Part shown: positions 8,359 to 22,207 of the stretch, in pieces
Layout: each line of letters opens with the position of its first letter
How positions within the stretch are numbered: position 1 is the stretch's first letter
Assembly (NCBI GenBank): GCA_013286465.1
Contig: JABDFR010000005.1
Span: forward strand, 1 to 64,000
Origin: Acidobacteriota bacterium
GTDB taxonomy: Bacteria > Acidobacteriota > Terriglobia > Acidiferrales > UBA7541
Direction of reading: 5' to 3'
Length of the DNA: 64,000 nucleotides
The notes under the pieces: model-generated
The model's database searches: none
What the model saw: the letters and a program-made list of their open reading frames with translations, nothing else
Told to the model about the DNA's origin: nothing
Position numbers and translations under genes: made by a program

Positions 8359-10227
8359 ATGCGCGAATTAATTCGGCCGAAGAGTGGGCCTGCCGGGATT
8401 TTATTTTCGGCGTTTTGGTTTTTTGGGATTTTGGGTTTGTGCTTGGGGCTGCCGGATTTCGTTCGGGGCGCGCTTGCGTCGGGGGCTTCTTCGCGGACGG
8501 TGCTTACGCGCGGGGAATTATTTTCGACGAAGGCGCGTGGGAAGCCGGTTGACGATATGGCTGGATTTGCGATTCCGGCCGGGGCTGCGGCGGCTAGCCA
8601 AACGTTTGAGGGGTCGCTTACTTTGAATGATGTGAAGGCGAGCGGAAACTTCAGTGGGCTTGCGGACGTTTTCAAATTGATTCCTGCGATTGATTCGCCT
8701 TGGAAGCATTTGGCGCCGTTTCATTTTGAGTTTGTGCAATCGGGGAGTTATTTGATTCCGGCGCAGCAGGGGCTCGGGTTTGTGGCTAGCAGCCCGACCT
8801 GGAACTACATACTGGGGCCTGGGCGAGTTTGGGATGAGAGGAGTGATGGCGGATATACGCGGGCGGCTTTTCCCTTTGCTTTGGTGCAGCGGAATCAGAA
8901 TTGCGTGCATAACGGGGAGATGACATTTCTTTTTCGAAATGGTGGGGCGCCGAATATTTCGAATGTCTATTACCAGATCACGCAGGAAACCTGCTATCCG
9001 ATGAAATTTAATTTGTGGGGGGTGGTTTCGGCGACTTATACGGCTGGAGTTGTCACGGGTGCGGCGCGGATTCGCGCGAATCATGAGGCGGAATTGGCGC
9101 TGCGCGCTCCTACGAAGCCTTTTTCGGATTTGGCCAAGGATTTTCCGCATGCGGGGATCGACGTCGCGGCGTTTGCCGCGGCTTATAAGCATCCCGAGAA
9201 TGTGACCACCTTTGGACTGATGATTCATGGGACGAATTACGTTTCGGGGTGCCCGACGCGGTCTGGGGAATATGCGTTTTGTAGCGAGATGCGGGTGCCT
9301 TCTTACTCGATTGCGAAGTCGGCGTTTGCGGGCGTGGCTTTGATGAGGTTGGGGCAGCTTTATGGGGCGGACGTTTATGGATCGAAGATTCGGGATTTCA
9401 TTCCGGCTTCAGTGATCCGCGGGAAGTGGGACGCTACTACTTTTGGGAATGCTTCTGACATGGCTACCGGGAATTTCAATCTTGGCGATTATGAGGCTGA
9501 TGAAGACAGCCCGGTGAATGACACATTTTTGATTGCTGAGGCTTATGCGCCGAAATTAGCGGATGCTTTTGGTTTCAAGGATCATTCGGTGGCGCCGGGG
9601 ACGAAGTGGGTTTATCAGAGTGCGGCTACATTTATTTTGACGCAGGCTATGGATGCTTACTACCGCGGGCGCGGCGGGCGGGGGGATATTTTTTCGATGC
9701 TGCGCGATGATGTTTATGTGCCGCTGCATTTGAATGAGGGTGGATTGACTACCATTCGGACGGATGACAGCGCAGCGGGGGCGCCAGCTGGTTATTACGG
9801 GCTTTTTTTCAATCAGGATGATATTGCGAAGATTGGGAATTTTTTGAATACGAGCGGTGGGGTGATTGACGGGAAGCAGGTGGTTGAGCCGGGGCGGCTT
9901 TCGGAGGCGCTGTTTCGTTCGGCGAATGTTGATTCGGCTGGAGTGGCGATTTTGGGGCGCAAGGATGCTTCGCTGGTGGGGGCGGCTGCTGTGGAGAATA
10001 CGCGGCGGTACAGTCATGGATTTTGGGGGCGGAAGATTACTCGGGCGGAATTTCCTGAGTATTCTTGCGATTATTGGACTTCATTTATGTCGGGATATGG
10101 CGGGAATATTGTGATGCTTTTGCCGGATGGGGCGACGTATTACATTTTCAGCGATGGGATGGAATTTCCGTGGCAGGCGCCGGTGCGGGAAATTAATGAA
10201 TTGGCGCCGATGTGCAATGCCAACTAA
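8359..10227 (+). CDS. Secreted serine hydrolase (beta-lactamase class C/penicillin-binding-like)
   Basis: Hydrophobic N-terminus; [12 protein letters not shown] (SxxK) and C-terminal YSHGFWGRK...MSGYGGN. Confidence 0.75.
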
Positions 10228-11702
10228 AACTTGCGGGAATGCTCTTTGGCCCAGCGTTCTACTACTACTTTTTTGTCGGTGTAGAACTCTACCGAGTCGC
10301 GGCCTTGGCCGTGTAGATCGCCGAAGAAACTGTCCTTCCAGCCTGTGAATGGGAAGTACGCCATGGGGGCGGCTACGCCAATATTTATGCCTATATTTCC
10401 GGCTTGGGCTTCGTAGCGGAAGCGACGGGCGGCGGCGCCGCTGGAGGTGAAGAGCGAGGCTTGATTGCCGAACGGGCTGCTGTTGAGGATGGCTAGGGCT
10501 TCGTCCATGTCGCGGGCTGGAATCAGGCTTAGGACGGGGCCGAAAATTTCGGTGTGGGCTAGCTCGCTGGTTTGCGGCAGGCCTTCTAGGATTGTGGGGC
10601 GGATGAAATTACCTGATTCGCGATTGGTGATTTTGGCGTTGCGGCCGTCGACCAGGACTTTTGCGCCTTCTTTTGCGCCGCGGGCGATTAGATCTTCGAT
10701 TCTGGTTTTACTTTGCGGGGTGATTACCGGGCCCATCTGCACGTTTTGATCTTGGCCGTCTCCTACTCTTAGTTTGCTGGCGTTTTCGGCTATTGCGTCG
10801 CGGAAAGTTTTTTGGGCTTCGCCGATTGCTACTGCTACCGAGACGGCCAGGCACCTTTGGCCGGCGCATCCGAAGGCGCTGTCGCTGATGATTTGCGTGG
10901 CGGATTCCATGTCGGCGTCCGGGAGGATGAGAACTGGATTTTTTGCGCCGCCTTGGCATTGGGCGCGCTTGCCGTTGGCGCCGGCGCGGGCGTAGACATA
11001 TTTCGCGATTGGCGTGGAGCCTACGAAGCTGATGGCGCGAATTTTTGGGTGATCGAGTAACGCATCTACTACTGATTTGCCGCCGTTGACTAGGTTTAGG
11101 ACGCCTTTGGGAAAGCCGGCGCGCTGGAGTAGATCGAAGGCGTAGCGCATAGTGAGCGGGACGCGTTCGGATGGCTTCAGGATGAAAGTATTGCCGGTGG
11201 CTACGGCGTACGGAAGAAACCAGAACGGAATCATGCCGGGAAAATTGAATGGGGTGATTGCGGCTACTACGCCTAGCGGCTGGCGGATCATGGTTTCGTC
11301 GATGCCGCGGGCGACGTCTTCGAGATTGTAGCCTTGCATGAGGATGGGAATTCCGCAGGCTACTTCTACGTTTTCGATGGCGCGGCGCATTTCGCCTCTG
11401 GATTCGCCGAGGGTTTTTCCGTTTTCCTTTGTGATGATGCGGCAGATTTCGTCTAGATGGTCTTCTAGCAGCTGCTTTAATTTGAAGAGCGGTTGGATTC
11501 GCTCTTCCGGAGGGGTGCGGCGCCAATCGGGGAATGCAGAGGCTGCGGCTTCTACGGCTGAGGCTACATCCTGGGCGGTTGAGAGTGGGATTTCGGCTAG
11601 CGATTCCTGGGTGGCGGGATTGATTACTTTTTGCGATTCGGTGGCGGAACTTTTGGTCCACTGGCCGCCGATGTAATTTGAGATTGTTTCTGTGGCCGAC
11701 AT
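10224..11702 (-). CDS. mmsA: CoA-acylating methylmalonate-semialdehyde dehydrogenase
   Basis: ALDH with MMSDH features: [57 protein letters not shown]. Confidence 0.9.
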
Positions 11703-11825: not shown

Positions 11826-14800
11826 TTAGAAAATTACCTTTAGGCCGAGCTGAATTTCTCGGGCCGCGAAGGCGGCGGGGGACTGGCCGAATTGCGGGCT
11901 GCCTAGATCGCCGATCGGGTTGTAGAGGTTGACGCGATTGAACAGGTTGAATGCTTCGAAACGGAATTGGAGTTTCAGCGATTCGTAGACGTTGATGTCT
12001 TTGAAGACGCCTAGATCGACCGACGCGTAGCCGGGGCCGCGGAAGGCGTTGCGGCTGAGAGTGCCGTCTTGCGCCACCGGGACGCACGGAGTTCCGTCGA
12101 AAAATGGAACGATTCCGCCGGGACAGAAAACACTGATCGCCGGCGATGAAAGCGAAATGGCGGTGCGGACTTGCGACGGGCTGCCGAAAACGCCGGCGAC
12201 GAATTGCTGATTGTTGAAGCCGGAGGTTTTTAGATTTGCCGGAGCGTTGGGGCGATCGTATTGCAGGCCGTCCATGTTGAAATCGCAGCCTTGGAACCAG
12301 GCCAGGCCGCAGTTCACGTCGAAGGGGCGGCCGGATTGCAGGGCTAGCAGCGGATTCACTTTCCATCCGCCGAAAACTTGCTTCATTACACCTTCTTTTG
12401 GTCCCGGAACATCCCAGACGCCGGAGAGAGTGAAGCGGTTGCGGACATCGAATTCTGACGGGCCGCGATCGAGTTTCGGCTTGCTGATGTCCGCGACGCC
12501 GGTATAGAGCGCGGCGTAGGCGTTTACGTTGAAATAGTCGCCCAGATTTCCTTCGGTTACGTTGTCGAGAACTTTTCCGTAGGTGTAGTTGATGGTCCAC
12601 ATGAAACCGTGGCTGTAATTTTTGCGGAGTTGCACGTTCATGCCGTGATAGATGGAGTTGCCTTCGTTGGAAGTGTAGTACTCGTTGTTCCAGCCGGGAT
12701 TGAGGCGATTGATGGTGAAATCGCAATTGGTGGCGGGATTCTCGCAAACGTCGCCATCGAAGCGATTGTAATCTTCGCGGGTGTAATTGCCGACGCCGTG
12801 AGTGCCGACGTAATTGATGGTGAAGCCGTAGTCGCGGAAGAATTGATGTTGAATGCCGAAGAACCATTGTTCGGCGTAGGCGGATTTTAATTTTGGATCA
12901 GTGCCGTAGAGATTGATGTTGAGGCCTTGAATGCCGCCGTTGGCGAGGGCGGGTCCTTGGAAATCGGGGCTGGGTTGGAATGGGAATGTGTAATTGATGT
13001 TGGTGCCGAAGCCGAAGACGGGATCTTCGACGGCTCTGGCGGAATTGGGGGGATCGAAACGCGAGCCGTTGGACCAGAGATTGGAGAACGGCTCGTTGTA
13101 GGCGATGCCGAAACCGGCGCGAATGGCGGAAGTGCCGTGGCCGAAGGGATCCCACGCTATGCCGACGCGCGGGGCGAAATCATGCTTGTTTGTACTCCAG
13201 AGCTGACTGACTCGGCCGACCGTTGCGGTGGTCATCGCGGCGGGGAGACTGTCTCCTTGACCGAGGATGATGTTGTTTTGCAGGCCATTGACTTCGCTGG
13301 GTGTGCCGAAAATGCTGTAGCGGAGGCCTAGATTCACCGTTAGGCGCGAGGTGATTTTCCAGTCGTCTTGAACGAAGGCGGCCCATTGCGTCCAACGGAA
13401 ATGGCGCGGGGAATCGGTGAAATCGCCGAACGTTGGGCCGGGCTCGCGGCTTACGGTGGCGGAAATTAGATAAGGATCGTCGTTGGCGAAATTAAATTTG
13501 CTGTTGAATTCGTAGAAGGGATTGGCGAGCAGGCCGTAGTCGCTATTTTCCTGGACGCGGCGGACTTCGAAACCGAATTTGAGGCTGTGGCGGCCGGCGA
13601 TGTGGGTGAGGATGTCGTTGGCGGCGAAGGTGTTGAAAACGAAATGGCGGGGCTGAAAAACTTCGCCGCCGATGTTCACTGGGCCATCGTCGAAGAAGAG
13701 AGTGCCGAAATCTTCGGGAGAGAGGCCGTCGGCTTTGAGGGTTTGTGCGGTAATGGTGTTGGGATTCATGCCGAAGCCGAGGTTGCTGTTGTTTCTGGAA
13801 TAGGCGAAACGGAGATCGTTGAGAGTGGTGGAGGAAAATTCGTGGGTGTAGCCGAGGCTGAGGTCGGCGAAGAAGCCGGTTTGCGGAGAGGTGAAGCCGC
13901 GGATGTTGCCGCCGGATAGTTCTTCGCGACCGACGTCGCCGGAAGCGTACGTGGCGATCCAGCGGCCGTAAAGTTGATCGCGGGAAGTTAGATGGTGGTC
14001 GATGCGAATGCTGTATTGGTCGGCGTTATTGGGTTCGAGTTGCGAGGCGGCGGCGGTGCATTGATCGGGGACATTGGGATCGGGAGGGCCGACGGCGAGC
14101 GGACCGTCTGCGACGGGAAGCACGCTGCCGGTGGAGATTTCGGTGCCGGGCAAGCACGGTGGGGCGGGGAAATCTTTATAGAATTGCGCGGCAAAATTAT
14201 TGGGAAAATTGGTGATTACGAAATTGCGGAATTCCGGGGTTTCGGTGGTGAAAAGCGCGGGGGCGCCGTCTTTCAGGCGCGAGCCTTCGTAGTTTAGGAA
14301 GAAGAAAGTCTTGTCCTTGAAAATTGGGCCGCCGAGGGAAGCGCCGAATTGATTTTGCTGCAGCGGGGTTTTGCTTACGAAATCGAAAAAGTTGCGGGCG
14401 TTGAGCGCGGTGTTTCTGCCGGTGTAGAAAGCGTCGCCGTGAAATTTGTTGGTGCCGGACTTGGTGATGACGTTGACGATGGCGCCGTCATTGCGGCCGT
14501 ATTCGGCGGAAAAATTCAGGGTTTGGACTTGGACTTCCTGGATGGCGTCGAGAGAGGGGAAGATCAGCGGCGTGCCGCCGAGCCATTCGTTGTTGTTGGA
14601 GTTGCCATCGAGAATGAAATTATTGCCGCGGGGGGTGGAGCCGTTGGCGATGAAGCCGTCGTCGAAAGTGGTGGAGCTGGTGGGCGAGGAGACGTTGGAG
14701 ACGACCGGGGCGTTGGTGGCGGTTACGCCGGGCTCGAGGGTAATGAGCTGATAGACGTCGCGGCCGTTGAGGGGAAGATCGGTGACTTCGCGGGTGGTGA

Positions 14801-15221
14801 GAGTGTTTGCCAGGCGTCCTTCTTCGGTTTGAACGAGCGGGGCGTTGGTGGTTACTTCGATGGTTTCGGTGACGCTGCCGATTTGCAGGACTACGGTGAG
14901 GCTGTTGACGACATTGACGCTGACGACGAGATTGTCGCTGACCAGCGATTTGAATCCTTTTGCGTTGACGTTCATGCGATAGGTGCCGGGGGCTAGATGC
15001 GGGAGGCGGGCGTAGCCGATGTTGTCGGTGACTTCTTCGGCTTCGGTGCCGGTGCCTAGATCGGTGAGTTTCACCGTCGCACTGGGAACGGCGGCGCCTG
15101 AGGAATCCTTCACTGTGACGGCGATCGTGCCTTCGGTGAGCTGAGCGGATAGGGCGGCGCTTAGGCCGAGCAGCAGGCACATGCTCAAAACGAGCTTGAT
15201 GATCAGGTTGCGGTAGGACAT
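11826..15221 (-). CDS. TonB-dependent receptor with N-terminal carboxypeptidase-regulatory-like domain (Oar-like)
   Basis: EGTIAVTVKDSSGAAVPSATVKLTDLGTG..., plug region (LPLNGRDVYQLITLEPGVT, DGAIVNVITKSGTNKFHGDAFYTGRN), C-terminal barrel ending in F. Confidence 0.9.
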   Translation of the reverse strand: MSYRNLIIKLVLSMCLLLGLSAALSAQLTEGTIAVTVKDSSGAAVPSATVKLTDLGTGTEAEEVTDNIGYARLPHLAPGTYRMNVNAKGFKSLVSDNLVVSVNVVNSLTVVLQIGSVTETIEVTTNAPLVQTEEGRLANTLTTREVTDLPLNGRDVYQLITLEPGVTATNAPVVSNVSSPTSSTTFDDGFIANGSTPRGNNFILDGNSNNNEWLGGTPLIFPSLDAIQEVQVQTLNFSAEYGRNDGAIVNVITKSGTNKFHGDAFYTGRNTALNARNFFDFVSKTPLQQNQFGASLGGPIFKDKTFFFLNYEGSRLKDGAPALFTTETPEFRNFVITNFPNNFAAQFYKDFPAPPCLPGTEISTGSVLPVADGPLAVGPPDPNVPDQCTAAASQLEPNNADQYSIRIDHHLTSRDQLYGRWIATYASGDVGREELSGGNIRGFTSPQTGFFADLSLGYTHEFSSTTLNDLRFAYSRNNSNLGFGMNPNTITAQTLKADGLSPEDFGTLFFDDGPVNIGGEVFQPRHFVFNTFAANDILTHIAGRHSLKFGFEVRRVQENSDYGLLANPFYEFNSKFNFANDDPYLISATVSREPGPTFGDFTDSPRHFRWTQWAAFVQDDWKITSRLTVNLGLRYSIFGTPSEVNGLQNNIILGQGDSLPAAMTTATVGRVSQLWSTNKHDFAPRVGIAWDPFGHGTSAIRAGFGIAYNEPFSNLWSNGSRFDPPNSARAVEDPVFGFGTNINYTFPFQPSPDFQGPALANGGIQGLNINLYGTDPKLKSAYAEQWFFGIQHQFFRDYGFTINYVGTHGVGNYTREDYNRFDGDVCENPATNCDFTINRLNPGWNNEYYTSNEGNSIYHGMNVQLRKNYSHGFMWTINYTYGKVLDNVTEGNLGDYFNVNAYAALYTGVADISKPKLDRGPSEFDVRNRFTLSGVWDVPGPKEGVMKQVFGGWKVNPLLALQSGRPFDVNCGLAWFQGCDFNMDGLQYDRPNAPANLKTSGFNNQQFVAGVFGSPSQVRTAISLSSPAISVFCPGGIVPFFDGTPCVPVAQDGTLSRNAFRGPGYASVDLGVFKDINVYESLKLQFRFEAFNLFNRVNLYNPIGDLGSPQFGQSPAAFAAREIQLGLKVIF

Positions 15222-15304
15222 GAGGGCCTCCCTCACACTGTGCGATGAGATTGTCTGCGCGTGCTCAATCGAATCAGGGATCAAGGTGCTCCAGGTTTTT
15301 TCAA

Positions 15305-15333
15305 TGTCTACAGAAAGAATGTAAGGTTGTCAA
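15305..15333 (-). promoter_or_regulatory. Predicted promoter of the TonB receptor gene with the shared TTGACAACCTTnCAT motif
   Basis: Minus strand TTGACA-(17)-TAGACA; 11 consecutive identical bases (TTGACAACCTT) plus CAT and GTAGA shared with 16345-16373. Confidence 0.6.
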
Positions 15334-15373
15334 GCGGAATGATAACTGGCGGGCGATGAGGGTGGCGGAAACG

Positions 15374-16327
15374 TCAGAAAGTGGGAGGGGTGTTGACCCA
15401 GAGCAGGACGGTTTCGCGATCGCCGGAATTGAACCAGCGATGGCCGCGGGTGCTTTCGAACCAGAAGCTTTCGCCTTCGTGGAGGACGTGGCATTCGAGT
15501 TCGTCGAGCCAGATTTCGAGGGTGCCGTTGAGCATGTAGATGAATTCTTCGCCGTTGTGGGAATAGGCACCGTCGCTGCCGGAGCCTGGGGGCACGCGAA
15601 ACAGCATGGATTGGAGCATTTTTGTGCCGGTGGAGAGGAGTTCCATGGCGACGCCGGATTCGGTGCGTAGGAGCGGACGCATGGACGGCTTCATGATGGC
15701 GCTGGGCTTGTGAGGGAGATCGTAGAATTCGAGGACGGTGGTGTTGTAGACGTTGGCGAGGCGTTGCAGCGTGGCGACCGAGGGATTTGCTTGCGATAAC
15801 TCGATGGCGCTGAGGAATCCGCCGGAGATTTTGGCGCGGCGGGCGACTTCGGCTACGCCCAGACCGGAGCGCTTGCGAAGGGTGCGAAGTTTTTCGCCGA
15901 TGCTGGGCGTTTTCCCGGTGCGCGTCGGCGCTTTGCGGGAACGCGTTTCGTCGAGAACGCGCTTGATGCCGGGAACGCGCAATTGTTTTACGTCGCGCAG
16001 ATATTTAATGCGCTTCAGCAGCTCGAGAACTTCCGGACTGTAGAGGCGGAATCTTCCCTGGCTGCGGACCGGGGCGACCAGGCCTACGTTTTCCCATTGG
16101 CGCAATGTGGAAGGACTTATGCCGAGAATACGAGCGGTCTGTCCGACGGTGAGGAAGCCGGCGATCGAATTTCTGTTTTTGGAGCGGTTGGAATTGGAGG
16201 CGCGAACGCGCTTACGGCGTCCGGATGGAGTTTTTTTTTGCATGTGGCAGCGGGCGATGCTCTTTTCAATTTGCTCGTGAACGCCGCTGAGTTTGCGTGC
16301 GATCCGGCGCGAATCAATGGGTAACAT
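15374..16327 (-). CDS. Transcriptional regulator with MerR-type HTH, XRE-type HTH and cupin domains
   Basis: MerR: FLTVGQTARILGISPSTLRQWENVGLVAPVRSQGRFRLYSPEVLELLKRIKYLRD. XRE: IGEKLRTLRKRSGLGVAEVARRAKISGGFLSAIELSQANPSVATLQRLANVY. Cupin: SHNGEEFIYMLNGTLEIWLDELECHVLHEGESFWFESTRGHRWFN. Confidence 0.85.
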   Translation of the reverse strand: MLPIDSRRIARKLSGVHEQIEKSIARCHMQKKTPSGRRKRVRASNSNRSKNRNSIAGFLTVGQTARILGISPSTLRQWENVGLVAPVRSQGRFRLYSPEVLELLKRIKYLRDVKQLRVPGIKRVLDETRSRKAPTRTGKTPSIGEKLRTLRKRSGLGVAEVARRAKISGGFLSAIELSQANPSVATLQRLANVYNTTVLEFYDLPHKPSAIMKPSMRPLLRTESGVAMELLSTGTKMLQSMLFRVPPGSGSDGAYSHNGEEFIYMLNGTLEIWLDELECHVLHEGESFWFESTRGHRWFNSGDRETVLLWVNTPPTF

Positions 16328-16344
16328 ACGATAAATTAGGTTGA

Positions 16345-16373
16345 TTGACAACCTTGCATGTCATTGGTAGAGT
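16345..16373 (+). promoter_or_regulatory. Predicted promoter of the aminotransferase operon with the shared TTGACAACCTTnCAT motif
   Basis: TTGACA-(17)-TAGAGT upstream of ATG 16443; paired with 15305-15333. Also AGGTTG-ATTGA-CAACCT inverted repeat across the -35 box. Confidence 0.6.
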
Positions 16374-16442
16374 GCGCGAACGGCTAGGATTGTGCGCTTT
16401 GCTTCGCGCTGCTTTTCGGATTTCAGATTTTTCGGAGTTTTT

Positions 16443-17801
16443 ATGACAGTACCAACGATTGGAAAATTGTCTCCTGCGCAGGTGAAGGAATACACCACTC
16501 AGTTTACTTATGGGACTTGGCGGCGGCAGAAGGGTTGGTCGCCGCTGCAGGTGGTGGCTGCGGAGGGGTGCTTTTTCACGGATGTAAGCGGGAAGAAGTA
16601 TTTGGATTTTTCCGCGCAGTTGATGTGCGTGAATTTGGGGCATAAGAATCGCGCGGTGATTGAGGCGATTCAGCAGCAGGCTGAGAAATTGGCTTTTATT
16701 GGACCGGGGTATGCGACGGAAGTGCGGGCGGAATTGGCGCAATTGCTGACCGAAGTTTTGCCGCGTGGGTTGGCGAAATATTTTTTTACTACTTCCGGAA
16801 CCGAGGCGAATGAGGCGGCTTTCAAGATTGCGCGGATGTATACGGGGAAGACGAAGATAATTTCGCGGTACCGGTCGTATCACGGTTCGACGATGGGCTC
16901 GATTGCGGCTACCGGGGACCCGCGGCGTTGGGCGATGGAGCCTAGCGGAAAAATACCGGGGGTGATTTTTGCGCCGGAGGTGAATTGCTACAAATGTCCG
17001 ATTGGCCACACGTATCCCGGATGTGGGATTGCGTGCGCGGAATATGTGGAGCACATGATCGCGAACGAGAGCGACGTGGCGGCGGTGATTGTGGAGCCGG
17101 TGGTGGGGACGAATGGCGTGTTGGTGCCGCCGAAGGAATATATGCCGCGATTGCGGCAGATTTGCGACGCACATGGGGTGCTTTTGATAGCGGATGAAGT
17201 GATGACCGGGTGGTGCCGTACGGGAAAATGGTTTGCGATGGATCATTGGAACGTGGCGCCGGACATTCTTACTACGGCGAAGGGAATTACGAACGCGGCG
17301 ATTCCTTTGGGGCTTTGCGCAACGACCGAAAAGATTGCAGCGTATTTCGACGATCATTTCTTTTCGCATGGACATACCTATGAAGCGCATCCGATCACGC
17401 TCGCTCCGGGAATCGCGGCGATTCAGGAGATGAAGCGGTTGAAGCTGGCTGAGCGGGCTACCGAGATGGGCGCTTATCTTGGCGACAAATTGCGCGGGCT
17501 GATGCCGCGGCACCGCTCGATCGGCGAAGTGCGCGGGCTGGGATTATTTTGGGGCGTGGAGCTGGTGAAGAATCAGAAAAAGAAAAATCCTTTCAATACC
17601 GGCGAGGACAAAATTGCCGGCAAGCCGCTGATGGTGGATCGCGTGGCGGCGAAGATGATGGCGGCGGGAGTTTTTATTCAGGCTTGGATGAGCCATTTTG
17701 TGATCGCGCCTCCTTTGATTATTACGAAAGAGGAGATCGATCGCGGGGTGACGGCGCTGGATGAGGCGTTGGGGCTTGCCGATGCCGAGGTGGAGGCGTA
17801 G
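16443..17801 (+). CDS. Class III (PLP) aminotransferase, possibly beta-alanine/omega-amino acid:pyruvate type
   Basis: GPGYATEVRAELAQLL, FFTTSGTEANEAAFKIAR, RYRSYHGSTMGS, IADEVMTGWCRTGKWFAMDHWNVAPDILTTAKGITN. Confidence 0.85.
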   Translation: MTVPTIGKLSPAQVKEYTTQFTYGTWRRQKGWSPLQVVAAEGCFFTDVSGKKYLDFSAQLMCVNLGHKNRAVIEAIQQQAEKLAFIGPGYATEVRAELAQLLTEVLPRGLAKYFFTTSGTEANEAAFKIARMYTGKTKIISRYRSYHGSTMGSIAATGDPRRWAMEPSGKIPGVIFAPEVNCYKCPIGHTYPGCGIACAEYVEHMIANESDVAAVIVEPVVGTNGVLVPPKEYMPRLRQICDAHGVLLIADEVMTGWCRTGKWFAMDHWNVAPDILTTAKGITNAAIPLGLCATTEKIAAYFDDHFFSHGHTYEAHPITLAPGIAAIQEMKRLKLAERATEMGAYLGDKLRGLMPRHRSIGEVRGLGLFWGVELVKNQKKKNPFNTGEDKIAGKPLMVDRVAAKMMAAGVFIQAWMSHFVIAPPLIITKEEIDRGVTALDEALGLADAEVEA

Positions 17802-17833: not shown

Positions 17834-19486
17834 GTGTGGCCTGTGTCGCGTCGGAAATTTCTGCATGGCTTGGGGGCGTTTGCCGCGCTGCCGCTTTTTC
17901 GTTCCGAAGAACCCGACCTGATCCTCTATAACGGCGATATTTGGACCGTTGATGAATCGCAGCCGCGGGCGCAGGCCGTTGCTATTATTGGCGGGAAATT
18001 CGCGGCCGTTGGATCGAATGACGAAGTGCTGCATCTGGCTTCGGCGCGTACGCGGAAGATCGATCTTGGATTGAAGTCTGTGCTGCCTGGATTTAATGAC
18101 GCGCATTCGCATCCTTGCGATTCGGGTGTCGAGCATCTTCGCAAAGTTGCTTGCGATTCCAATTCCATCGAGAAAATTCAGATGGCCTTGCACGAGCGGG
18201 CGCAGAAAACGCCGCCGGGGCAATGGGTGCTGGGATTTTTGTACGACGATGGGAAGACTCCGCGTCCGTTGAATATGCATGACCTGGATGCGGCGGTGCC
18301 GGATCATCCGGTGATCGTGCAGCATCGCGGCGGGCACGTGGCGTTCGTGAATTTCATGGCGCTGAAACTGGCGAACGTGGACGATCAGACGCCCGATCCT
18401 ACCGGCGGGCGCTTCGAACATGATTCCTCGGGACATTTGACTGGGTATGTTGGCGATGCCGCGGCGAAAATATTTTTCGCGTTGGTGCCGCAGACGAATA
18501 CACGCGAGGACTACCGGGCGGGCTCGGCCTTTATTTCGAAATTGTTCGCTAGCAAGGGTGTGACTTCGGCTTGCGATGCGGATGCCGATCCGGAATATGT
18601 GCAGGGTTATCAGGACGCGCGGGATAGCGGGGAATTGCGGATGCGCGTTTATTGCATTGTATCGGCGCATTCGCTCGAACGATTTATGGCCGCTGGAGTT
18701 CATACTGGCTTTGGCGATGATTGGGTGCGCATCGGTGGAGTGAAGCAGTATGCCGACGGCTCGATTTCGGAGCGCACTGCCTGGCTATCGCAACCTTATA
18801 TAGGGATCCCTGGAAATTACACCGGATTGCAGTTGACCACGCGCGAGAAACTTTACGAGGTGGGGAGCAAGGCACACGCGGCGGGTTGGCAATTGGCCAC
18901 GCATGCGAATGGGGATTTGGCGATCGACCGGATTCTGAGCGTTTACGAGCAGATTCAGAAAGAAAATCCGCGGAAAGATCCGCGATTCCGGATCGAGCAT
19001 TGCACGTTGTTGAATGATTCTTTGATTCAGCGGATGAAGGCCTTGAACGTGATTCCCGCGCCGTTTTCCTGCTACGTCTACTTTCATGGCGACGTAATGC
19101 ATTTTTATGGCGAGGAACGGACGAAGAACATGTTTCCGATGCGAAGTTTTCTGGATGCCGGGCTGCGGCCTACGGATTCTTCCGATTACACGGCAAGCCC
19201 TTCGGACCCGATGATGTGGCTGCAATCGCAGCTCACGCGGACGGACTTCAAGGGGCATTCGTGGGGATTGAATCAGCGGATCGGGATTGAAGAAGCGATT
19301 CGCTGCGGGACGGTGAATGGGGCTTACGCTTCGTTTGAGGAAGATATTAAGGGCTCGATCCGGCCGGGGCAGCTTGCAGATCTGGTGGTGCTGCAGAAGA
19401 ATCCTTTCAAGACGGAGCCTTCCGAACTTTTGAAAGTGCAAGTCGAGCGAACGATGGTTGGCGGCAAGTGGACGTATGAATCGTGA
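17834..19486 (+). CDS. Amidohydrolase (YtcJ-like, amidohydrolase_3) with twin-arginine-like N-terminus
   Basis: SRRKFLHGLGAFAAL; PGFNDAHSHP; GGVKQYADGSISERTAWL; SIRPGQLADLVVLQKNPF. Confidence 0.85.
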   Translation: MWPVSRRKFLHGLGAFAALPLFRSEEPDLILYNGDIWTVDESQPRAQAVAIIGGKFAAVGSNDEVLHLASARTRKIDLGLKSVLPGFNDAHSHPCDSGVEHLRKVACDSNSIEKIQMALHERAQKTPPGQWVLGFLYDDGKTPRPLNMHDLDAAVPDHPVIVQHRGGHVAFVNFMALKLANVDDQTPDPTGGRFEHDSSGHLTGYVGDAAAKIFFALVPQTNTREDYRAGSAFISKLFASKGVTSACDADADPEYVQGYQDARDSGELRMRVYCIVSAHSLERFMAAGVHTGFGDDWVRIGGVKQYADGSISERTAWLSQPYIGIPGNYTGLQLTTREKLYEVGSKAHAAGWQLATHANGDLAIDRILSVYEQIQKENPRKDPRFRIEHCTLLNDSLIQRMKALNVIPAPFSCYVYFHGDVMHFYGEERTKNMFPMRSFLDAGLRPTDSSDYTASPSDPMMWLQSQLTRTDFKGHSWGLNQRIGIEEAIRCGTVNGAYASFEEDIKGSIRPGQLADLVVLQKNPFKTEPSELLKVQVERTMVGGKWTYES

Positions 19487-19534: not shown

Positions 19535-20665
19535 ATGAAAAGGCGTGAAATGCTGGGCGCGATGGCCGGACTTGCGTCGGTTGCGCCCGTGTTTTCTCGC
19601 AGTGGGTTCGATTTTTCTGACGCGCCGTCGCGCGGCATGGACGAGCCGATTTCCGTTCCATCGGAAGGTTGGATCACCGATGTGGATGGAATTGAAGTGG
19701 GGCATTTTACAGATACGCGGCGCCCCACTGGATGCACGGTAATTTTGTGCCGGGGCGGGGCGATTGGCGGGGCGGATGTGCCGGGTGGAAATCCCGGCTC
19801 GCGTTTGACGGATATGCTGCAGCCGATCCGGAATGCGGATGAGTCGGTGATCGTCGAAGCGGTGGTTTTGACGGGCGGCAGCGATTTTGGATTGGCTTCG
19901 GCTGGTGGAGTGGAACGATATCTTCGGGAAAGTTATATCGAGAAGCATAAATCGGAGGCGCATCCTGATCCGCATGTGCCGATTGTGCCGGCTGCGGTGA
20001 TTTTTGATTTGTATAAGGATCAGGATTGGACGATTGTTCCGACGGCGGAATCGGGATATGCGGCTTGCCAGGCTGCGGCTAAGGGAAAAGTTGCGGAAGG
20101 TTGCGTGGGGGCTGGTGCGGGTGCGGCGGTGGGGCATTGGGGCCGGCATCAGACGAAGTCGGGATTGGGGACGGCGAGTTTCAAAATTGGAGAGACGGGA
20201 ATTGTGGTTGGCGCGATTTGCGCGGTGAATGCGGTGGGCGATGTTTATGATCCGCGGACGGGAAAGCTGGTCGCGGGATCGCGCACGGCCGATGGAAAAA
20301 AGTTTGCGCCGATTATCGATCGGCTGCGCGCGGGCGAGGACGTGGTGCTTCCGCCTGCTGGGACGCATACTACGATTTCGTGCGTGGCGACGAATGCTAG
20401 TTTTGGCCCCGCAGCGATGGCGAAGATTGCGCAGATGGCTTCGGCAGCGCATGCGCGGGTGATTAATCCTTCTTGGGCGCCTGGGGATGGGGATACCGTG
20501 TTTGCGCTTTCTACTGGAACTTTGAAAACTCCGGTGGAGCATGGCGCGATTGGGGCGATTGCTGCTGAGGTTTTGAAAGAGGCGATACTTCGTGCGGTGG
20601 TGAATGCTACGGGGCGGCCTGGGATGCCGAGTTATCGCGATGTCTTAAATGGGCGGCTGGCGTAG
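19535..20665 (+). CDS. P1-family peptidase (DmpA/BapA/NylC-like autoprocessing aminopeptidase or amide hydrolase)
   Basis: WITDVDGIEVGHFTDTRRPTGCTVILC...GAIGGADVPGGNPGSR; GCVGAGAGAAVGHWG; candidate autoprocessing segment GTHTTISCVATNASF. Confidence 0.85.
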   Translation: MKRREMLGAMAGLASVAPVFSRSGFDFSDAPSRGMDEPISVPSEGWITDVDGIEVGHFTDTRRPTGCTVILCRGGAIGGADVPGGNPGSRLTDMLQPIRNADESVIVEAVVLTGGSDFGLASAGGVERYLRESYIEKHKSEAHPDPHVPIVPAAVIFDLYKDQDWTIVPTAESGYAACQAAAKGKVAEGCVGAGAGAAVGHWGRHQTKSGLGTASFKIGETGIVVGAICAVNAVGDVYDPRTGKLVAGSRTADGKKFAPIIDRLRAGEDVVLPPAGTHTTISCVATNASFGPAAMAKIAQMASAAHARVINPSWAPGDGDTVFALSTGTLKTPVEHGAIGAIAAEVLKEAILRAVVNATGRPGMPSYRDVLNGRLA

Positions 20666-20758
20666 GGCAATCTTCGGAGTTTCATTCCTGAGCGGATGCT
20701 GCTGGGGTACTATTCCGTCTGCTTGCTGCTTTTTTCGCCGGAAGTTGCGAGGTGCGGG

Positions 20759-22207
20759 ATGCGTTCTCTATTTCTTTTTGGATTTTTGCTTATTGCTACG
20801 ATTGCGGTGGCGCAGACGCAGAAGGCTCCGGACGTTGCGGAGTTTGTCAGCGTGGATGCGCCGGTGTTTGTTTTGAATCATGTGCGCGTGATTGATGGTT
20901 CTGGAGCGGCGGCTGTCGACGATCAGGCGGTGATCGTTTCCGGCGGAAAGATTCAGTGGATTGGGGCGGCTGGTTCGGCGCAGGCGCCGGCGGGCGCGCA
21001 GATATTGGATCGTACCGGTGACACCGTGATTCCCGGGATTGTTGGGATGCACGATCATCTTTATTACACGGATTCGATTTCGGTGCAGGTTGCCGGAGGA
21101 CGGATTGCCGAGCCGGGATTATTTGTGGCGGAAATTCCTTATACGGCGCCACGACTTTATTTGGCCGCGGGCGTGACGTCGATGCGCACTACCGGGAGCC
21201 TTGAGCCTTATACCGATTTGAAAATCAAGAGCCGGATTGATTCCGGTTTGATGCCTGGGCCTTGGATTGATGCTACGGCTCCTTATCTGGAAGGCGCGCC
21301 TACGATATTTGCACAGATGCATGAATTGACGGGGCCCGAGGATGCGAAACGTTCCGTGGATTATTGGGCGGCGGAGGGAATGACTTCTTATAAGGCGTAC
21401 ATGAACATTACTCGCGAGGAGCTTGGCGTGGCGATTTCGGAGGCGCATTCGCTGAAACTGAAATTGACTGGGCATCTTTGTTCGGTGACTTGGCCGGAGG
21501 CGGTGGCTTTGGGAATTGATGATTTTGAGCATGGGCCGGTTTTTAGCGATACGGAATTTGTCGCGGATAAGAAGCCGGATGTTTGTCCGCAGGGTGGCGT
21601 GGGGAGTTGGGCGAATCAGGAAATCGACGGAGCGGCGGTGACTGGGTTGATTCGCAATTTGGTGGCGCATCATGTGGCGGTCACTTCTACTTTGCCGGTG
21701 TTTGAGGCGAGCGCGCCGGGGCGGCCGAAATTGCAGACACGGACTTTGGAGGCGATGTCGGCGGAATCGGCGCAAAGTTATTTGACGGCGCGGGCGCGGG
21801 TGAGTTTGGATTCACAGATGACTTCCTTGATGCGCAAGGAGATGGACTTTGAAGTGGCGTTTGTGAAGGCTGGAGGATTGTTGCTGGGCGGTCCTGATCC
21901 TACTGGGAATGGCGGCGTGTTGCCGGGATTTGGGGATCAGCGGGAAATTGAATTGTTGGTGGAGGCGGGATTTTCTCCGGTGGAGGCGATTCGGATTGGG
22001 ACGGCGAACGGGGCTGCTTATCTTGGATTGAGCGATCGGATTGGGACTCTTGCTGCGGGCAGGCAGGCGGATTTGGTTTTGATTAAGGGCGATCCTTCTA
22101 AGAAGATTGAAGAGATTGAGAATGTGGAGACGGTTTTCAAGGCTGGGGTTGGTTACGATTCGAAGAAATTGATTGAGAGTGTGCGCGGGCAGGTGGGGAT
22201 TCGATAG
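20759..22207 (+). CDS. Secreted amidohydrolase (imidazolonepropionase/prolidase-like)
   Basis: Signal peptide MRSLFLFGFLLIATIAVAQ; VIPGIVGMHDHLYYTDS; LGLSDRIGTLAAGRQADLVLIKGDP. Confidence 0.8.
   Translation: MRSLFLFGFLLIATIAVAQTQKAPDVAEFVSVDAPVFVLNHVRVIDGSGAAAVDDQAVIVSGGKIQWIGAAGSAQAPAGAQILDRTGDTVIPGIVGMHDHLYYTDSISVQVAGGRIAEPGLFVAEIPYTAPRLYLAAGVTSMRTTGSLEPYTDLKIKSRIDSGLMPGPWIDATAPYLEGAPTIFAQMHELTGPEDAKRSVDYWAAEGMTSYKAYMNITREELGVAISEAHSLKLKLTGHLCSVTWPEAVALGIDDFEHGPVFSDTEFVADKKPDVCPQGGVGSWANQEIDGAAVTGLIRNLVAHHVAVTSTLPVFEASAPGRPKLQTRTLEAMSAESAQSYLTARARVSLDSQMTSLMRKEMDFEVAFVKAGGLLLGGPDPTGNGGVLPGFGDQREIELLVEAGFSPVEAIRIGTANGAAYLGLSDRIGTLAAGRQADLVLIKGDPSKKIEEIENVETVFKAGVGYDSKKLIESVRGQVGIR

Follow-up and report, generated by a model that had tools for sequence, protein, structure and literature searches.

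Does a single regulator with two predicted DNA-binding domains control the genes on both of its sides in the genome of this soil acidobacterium, and if so, through which DNA element? In the 64,000-nucleotide stretch of DNA analysed here (the window), the gene of a MerR-XRE-cupin protein is located between a TonB-dependent receptor gene and an aminotransferase operon, and an earlier note on this DNA had claimed that the regulator links uptake to catabolism through an operator shared by the two promoters.

The promoter pair and its shared element

The receptor promoter lies on the minus strand at 15305–15333 (−35 TTGACA at 15333–15328 and −10 TAGACA at 15310–15305), and the promoter of the aminotransferase operon lies on the plus strand at 16345–16373 (−35 TTGACA and −10 TAGAGT). 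Both were present at the coordinates and on the strands at which they had been quoted, each with a 17-bp spacer; GTAGA was confirmed in register in both, as was the outward direction of the pair relative to the regulator gene. The candidate operator copies, TTACATTCTTTCTGTAGACAT (15304–15324, minus strand) and TTGCATGTCATTGGTAGAGTG (16354–16374, plus strand), overlap the spacer and −10 of the receptor and aminotransferase promoters, respectively, the former in a register common to relatives.

A genome search, as proposed in the earlier note, located the shared motif at this locus and not at many unrelated promoters. Exact matches to TTGACAACCTTNCAT were found only twice in the organism's own assembly, one 5′ of the TonB receptor (15333→15319, minus strand) and the other 5′ of the aminotransferase (16345→16359, plus strand), while the reversed control pattern gave no match in the same 3,014,771 bases; the count may be too low, as this assembly is 66% complete. 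With up to three mismatches, TTGACANCCNTNCATNNNTNNNGTAGA retrieved the two window sites and one three-mismatch site from the own genome, and a similar pattern with at most one mismatch retrieved the two window sites and one one-mismatch site from 89 family genomes.

The shared letters might reflect merely two good sigma-70 promoters without any operator, and TTGACA and the TAGAnn −10 do account for part of the match. The two spacers agree at 10 of 17 positions (binomial P about 0.003), a level that 2% of 300 control TTGACA-17-TA pairs also reached; the likeness of the spacers alone is thus only moderately unusual and suggestive at best. Stripped of the −35 and −10, the window spacers stood out only in register; in a free scan, they were inconspicuous. 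The case for a shared element is carried by its uniqueness in the genome and its conservation in relatives.

The regulator protein and its gene start

The regulator gene occupies 15374–16243 on the minus strand and encodes 289 aa from the ATG at 16243, with MerR_1, HTH_3 and Cupin_2 domains assigned from Pfam, alignment and a structural model. MerR_1 (PF13411) scored 62 bits against a cut-off of 21.6, and HTH_3 and Cupin_2 also exceeded their Pfam cut-offs, giving a Cro/C1-type HTH followed by a cupin, a fold also present in the model. The AlphaFold model (mean pLDDT 78) comprises a flexible N-terminus, a MerR winged HTH (wHTH), an XRE helical domain and a beta-barrel cupin; its pTM of 0.44 means that the relative placement of these domains is not reliable. 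The long dimer coiled coil of MerR proteins is absent from this model. The NCBIfam PuuR model aligned to residues 143–318, and the PuuR equivalog NF007408 reached 65.7 bits, which is below its curated cut-off of 211.

The reading frame is also open further 5′, to 16330 and 16351. A promoter-like site for the regulator gene detected by consensus scan (TTGTCA-17-TATGTT, 16351→16323, minus strand) overlaps the −35 of the aminotransferase promoter and would start transcription downstream of the ATG at 16330, inside the long frame, which makes the ATG at 16243 likelier; homology in most relatives begins only near or after this codon. The protein therefore probably begins at 16243 (289 aa) rather than at 16330 or 16351. 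From the overlap of its putative promoter with the right-hand site, we infer that the regulator is autoregulated.

Sites in close relatives

The regulator tree resolved two clades, with support of 100/99 for the window clade (10 rows) and of 93/96 for the paralogue clade (42 rows), and proteins from Rubrobacter and Acidaminobacter with the same three domains fell outside both. Thirteen further window-clade members were examined (L033, L034, L035, L111, L127, L071–L075 and L146–L148), where L127 and L146–L148 were assigned by identity and not placed on the tree. Sites were present in nine of the 13 loci, so that the footprint of the corresponding gaps bore out the expected conservation; a search of the relatives' loci found no clear operator in L071, L072 or L147, and the L075 locus is cut off upstream.

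The regulators of L073 and L074 are each 64% identical to that of the window. In L073, TTGACAACCATACATGTTTCTAGTAGAAC lies 5′ of the aminotransferase gene, and in L074, TTGACAACCATATATGTTTCTAGTAGAAC and TTGACAACCATACATGTTTGTAGTAGAAG lie 5′ of an aminotransferase and a receptor gene, respectively. Both window promoters match the L073/L074 promoters at 21 of 29 positions, more than any other place in the window (18 at most), and the window spacer letters agree with those of L073 and L074 at 11 of 17 positions. In L073, the aminotransferase gene is followed on its strand by those of the receptor and two FAD enzymes, and a single operator was detected; the receptor genes of L074 and the window form units of their own, each with an operator copy. 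The aminotransferases of L073 and L074 are only 32–35% identical to that of the window, indicating that the operator goes with the regulator and not with the target gene.

L146, L147 and L148 were found after the matrix had been fixed and thus provided a forward test of site prediction, which resulted in two successes (L148 and L146) and one failure (L147). In L148, which belongs to another family of the phylum, TTGACAAGATTGCAGGATTCCTGTAGAAA was predicted between the regulator and receptor genes in exactly the register of the window, with a score of 17.9 against 3.7 for the next best position in the locus. Three sites were obtained in L146, including those at the receptor promoter and an amidohydrolase promoter. 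With a matrix built only from the other close relatives, no more than two positions in the window scored above the aminotransferase site.

The agreement of 11 of 17 spacer letters with L073 and L074 speaks against two sigma-70 promoters that are alike simply as promoters, as do the restriction of the exact 14-base match to two places 1 kb apart in the genome and the occurrence of the core outside this promoter register in the paralogues and Rubrobacter described below. We accordingly regard that explanation as very unlikely, and a shared operator remains the preferred reading.

Sites of the paralogues and of Rubrobacter

The own genome encodes a second copy of the regulator, which belongs to the paralogue clade (L044, G000:C22, 4688–5571); in this locus and in about 42 family genomes, the paralogue gene is divergent from a TonB receptor gene. 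GATTATAGTAAGGTT is nearly invariant in this clade, and almost every genome that has it contains a single copy: a search allowing one mismatch located it at 44 places in 43 of the 89 family genomes, and 41 of these places were within 200 bp of a paralogue regulator gene by coordinate comparison. TTGACA-17-TA stands just upstream in all 42 fully read paralogue sites, with varying spacer letters, and the conserved operator covers the start site, 3′ of the −10. Matches to TTGACAACCTT in the paralogue promoters of L037 and L040 were dropped and not counted as support, because the spacer is unconstrained in these promoters, whose conserved element is located 3′ of the −10. One genome contains a second exact GATTATAGTAAGGTT (G048:C40:28942–28956) about 15 kb from a window-type regulator, which suggests overlapping operator use between the two clades. 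The paralogue operon of L049 comprises a GSA-aminomutase-like aminotransferase, an amino-acid permease, an aldehyde dehydrogenase and a second aminotransferase.

The Rubrobacter relatives carry TTGCATGTTTATAGTAGCCTT-type sites. When a matrix was built from Rubrobacter alone, the receptor and aminotransferase sites of the window ranked 3rd and 29th, respectively, of 127,960 positions, and a matrix built from the paralogues alone failed to pick out the window sites (ranks 863 and 279); the claim therefore rests on the closer relatives and Rubrobacter. The window sites are degenerate with respect to the family-wide consensus. Among the Rubrobacter homologues (L076–L080 and L083), several have the regulator gene divergent from a gene judged alanine dehydrogenase-like by its sequence; TTGCAYGTTTATTGTAGCCTTGTTATAAGG is conserved in the promoter region, and an aminotransferase and an S9 peptidase are encoded nearby.

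Shape and placement of the operator

Alignment of the sites of all clades gave a core operator of about 21 bp, TTRCAnnnTTATwGTARRGTT. The earlier note had taken ACAACCTT as the operator; the shared element proved to be real, but its conserved core is rather TTRCAT...GTARR in the spacer and −10, since TTGACA is the −35 and ACAACC is common to only a subset of the relatives (L073 and L074). The candidate core is better written TTRCA-N9-GTAR, a form that recurs in Rubrobacter and, as GATTATAGTAAGGTT, in the paralogue clade.

The sites of the relatives consist of an imperfect direct repeat with a 19-bp period, TARGGTT-N12-TARGGTT (within-site agreement of 0.60 at offset 19 versus 0.11–0.35 at other offsets); in the window sites, the repeat is weak, with two to three of seven positions matching. 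In the paralogues, the left repeat also serves as the −10 and the right repeat covers the start site, while in the window, L073, L074 and L148 it is the right half of the site that serves as the −10; the operators of these four loci are consequently shifted 5′ against the promoter by about two helical turns. The spacer was 17 bp in all promoters examined, namely both window promoters, those of L073, L074 and L148, and 42 of 42 paralogue promoters. We tentatively raise the possibility, itself rather doubtful, that the MerR-XRE-cupin proteins constitute a separate cross-phylum family with a tandem 19-bp operator, perhaps contacted by the two HTHs on successive repeats, which has shifted by about two helical turns between clades.

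A perfect palindrome, AGGTTG-N5-CAACCT, covers the divergent −35 elements at 16338–16354, and its 6-bp arms and PsdR-like geometry (TTAAG-N5-CTTAA in the PsdR operator; PMC10965056) would suit a true operator of the XRE-cupin style, with the match at the receptor promoter as a half-site. However, the palindrome is absent at the receptor promoter, where, as in L073 and L074, only one arm occurs, and a scan of the regulator gaps of other close relatives did not find it. We consider this explanation very unlikely, and the non-palindromic core is retained as the candidate operator.

Genes of the two arms and their likely pathway

On the minus strand, the left arm contains the Oar-like TonB-dependent receptor (11826–15221; CarboxypepD_reg and OMP_b-brl_4 in Pfam) and, downstream of it on the same strand, a CoA-acylating methylmalonate-semialdehyde dehydrogenase (MMSDH; 10224–11702; NCBIfam TIGR01722, 570 bits against a cut-off of 448.5), which extends the set of putatively regulated genes in the earlier note by a gene behind the receptor. 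A 622-aa open frame (8359–10227) is convergent with the MMSDH gene, their ends overlapping by 4 bases, and had no match in Pfam or NCBIfam. On the plus strand, Pfam assigned a class III aminotransferase (16443–17801), an amidohydrolase (Amidohydro_3, 17834–19486), a peptidase of family S58 (DmpA/BapA/NylC-like, 19535–20665) and a further amidohydrolase (Amidohydro_1, 20696–22207), with which the right arm probably ends. S58 genes are also found near the regulator in L075 and L148.

The window aminotransferase is 71% identical to one adjoining the regulator orthologue of L071, which also adjoins PreA, dihydropyrimidinase, an NCS1 permease and MMSDH (L071 2065–10346). PreA and dihydropyrimidinase, both reductive pyrimidine genes, scored above cut-off, and this cluster, which has no clear operator, likely represents a pyrimidine-to-beta-alanine pathway. 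In L073, the one tested of the two FAD enzymes was a spermidine dehydrogenase (E 9.9e-117). Overall, the neighbours (MMSDH, S58 peptidase and aminotransferase in the window, and pyrimidine genes and spermidine dehydrogenase in relatives) suggest the catabolism of beta- or omega-amino acids or polyamines; counted against the beta/omega-amino-acid assignment, the best solved relative of the aminotransferase is taurine:2-oxoglutarate aminotransferase (6jix), which acts on taurine.

Proposed mode of control

With the motif corrected, the link drawn in the earlier note between uptake and catabolism under one regulator is well supported by comparison. The MerR-XRE-cupin protein is probably a local, pathway-specific repressor that acts through both window operators until its cupin domain binds a metabolite. 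It would bind the two copies of the roughly 21-bp operator (TTRCAT-N8-GTAGA) over the spacer and −10 of both promoters and, when no inducer is present, would block RNA polymerase at the receptor/MMSDH unit and at the aminotransferase/amidohydrolase/S58-peptidase unit, probably along with its own overlapping promoter. Binding of a pathway metabolite by the cupin, probably a beta- or omega-amino acid (e.g., beta-alanine) or a polyamine-derived one, would release the regulator from DNA, and uptake and breakdown would then start together. Binding, repression rather than activation, the ligand and the substrate are in each case what we infer from the comparisons. Candidate operators in the own genome were found only at the units neighbouring the regulator. 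XRE-cupin proteins of Pseudomonas repress neighbouring metabolic genes by binding core promoters (promoter occlusion) and are proposed to come off the DNA once a pathway metabolite is sensed by the cupin (PMC7901475).

The same protein and sites could also serve activation, with the MerR domain bending the spacer and aiding the polymerase as in MerR and SoxR, given that a MerR HTH is present and the window sites lie between the −35 and −10. MerR-type activation involves promoter spacers of 19–20 bp, whereas 17-bp spacers were found throughout; together with sites over the spacer and −10 or the start site, these fit occlusion and not MerR-type activation. Activators rarely act from a position over the start site such as that of the paralogue operator, 3′ of the −10, and the regulator model does not have the long MerR dimer coiled coil. 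Activation is thus an unlikely alternative to the repression proposed here.

Comparison with known systems

Many of the TonB receptors encoded by Acidobacteria have no known substrate, and few regulators of this phylum have been characterised. A conserved, rare operator that can be read from sequence links such receptors with catabolic genes and thereby hints at their substrates, and it offers a testable candidate for a two-HTH cupin class for which a search of open papers gave no earlier description, although one may exist.

As in the XRE-cupin repressors PuuR, PauR, PsdR and ErfA, a Cro/C1 HTH is joined to a cupin, the gene adjoins its predicted target operons, the targets concern uptake and catabolism of amines, amino acids or peptides, and the sites lie in core promoters. 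Unlike these proteins, the window regulator has an extra N-terminal MerR HTH, and its relatives' sites are direct repeats with a 19-bp period, in contrast to the palindromic sites reported for PsdR and PauR (PMC7901475, PMC10965056). With the MerR family, it shares the N-terminal MerR_1 wHTH (HspR-, CarH- or GlnR-like) and a site between the −35 and −10; it differs from this family in lacking the long coiled-coil dimer helix and the 19–20-bp spacer, and in having its cupin sensor behind a second HTH. BauR, BarR of Sulfolobus and RutR, which act in beta-alanine or polyamine use, are likely similar in metabolic role, but belong to unrelated protein families. BarR, for example, is Lrp-like (PMC4977709). 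The added MerR domain and the non-palindromic conserved site make the regulator a variant of the XRE-cupin local repressors and not a plain member, and the locus represents a convincing further example of an established type of local metabolic control rather than a new principle.
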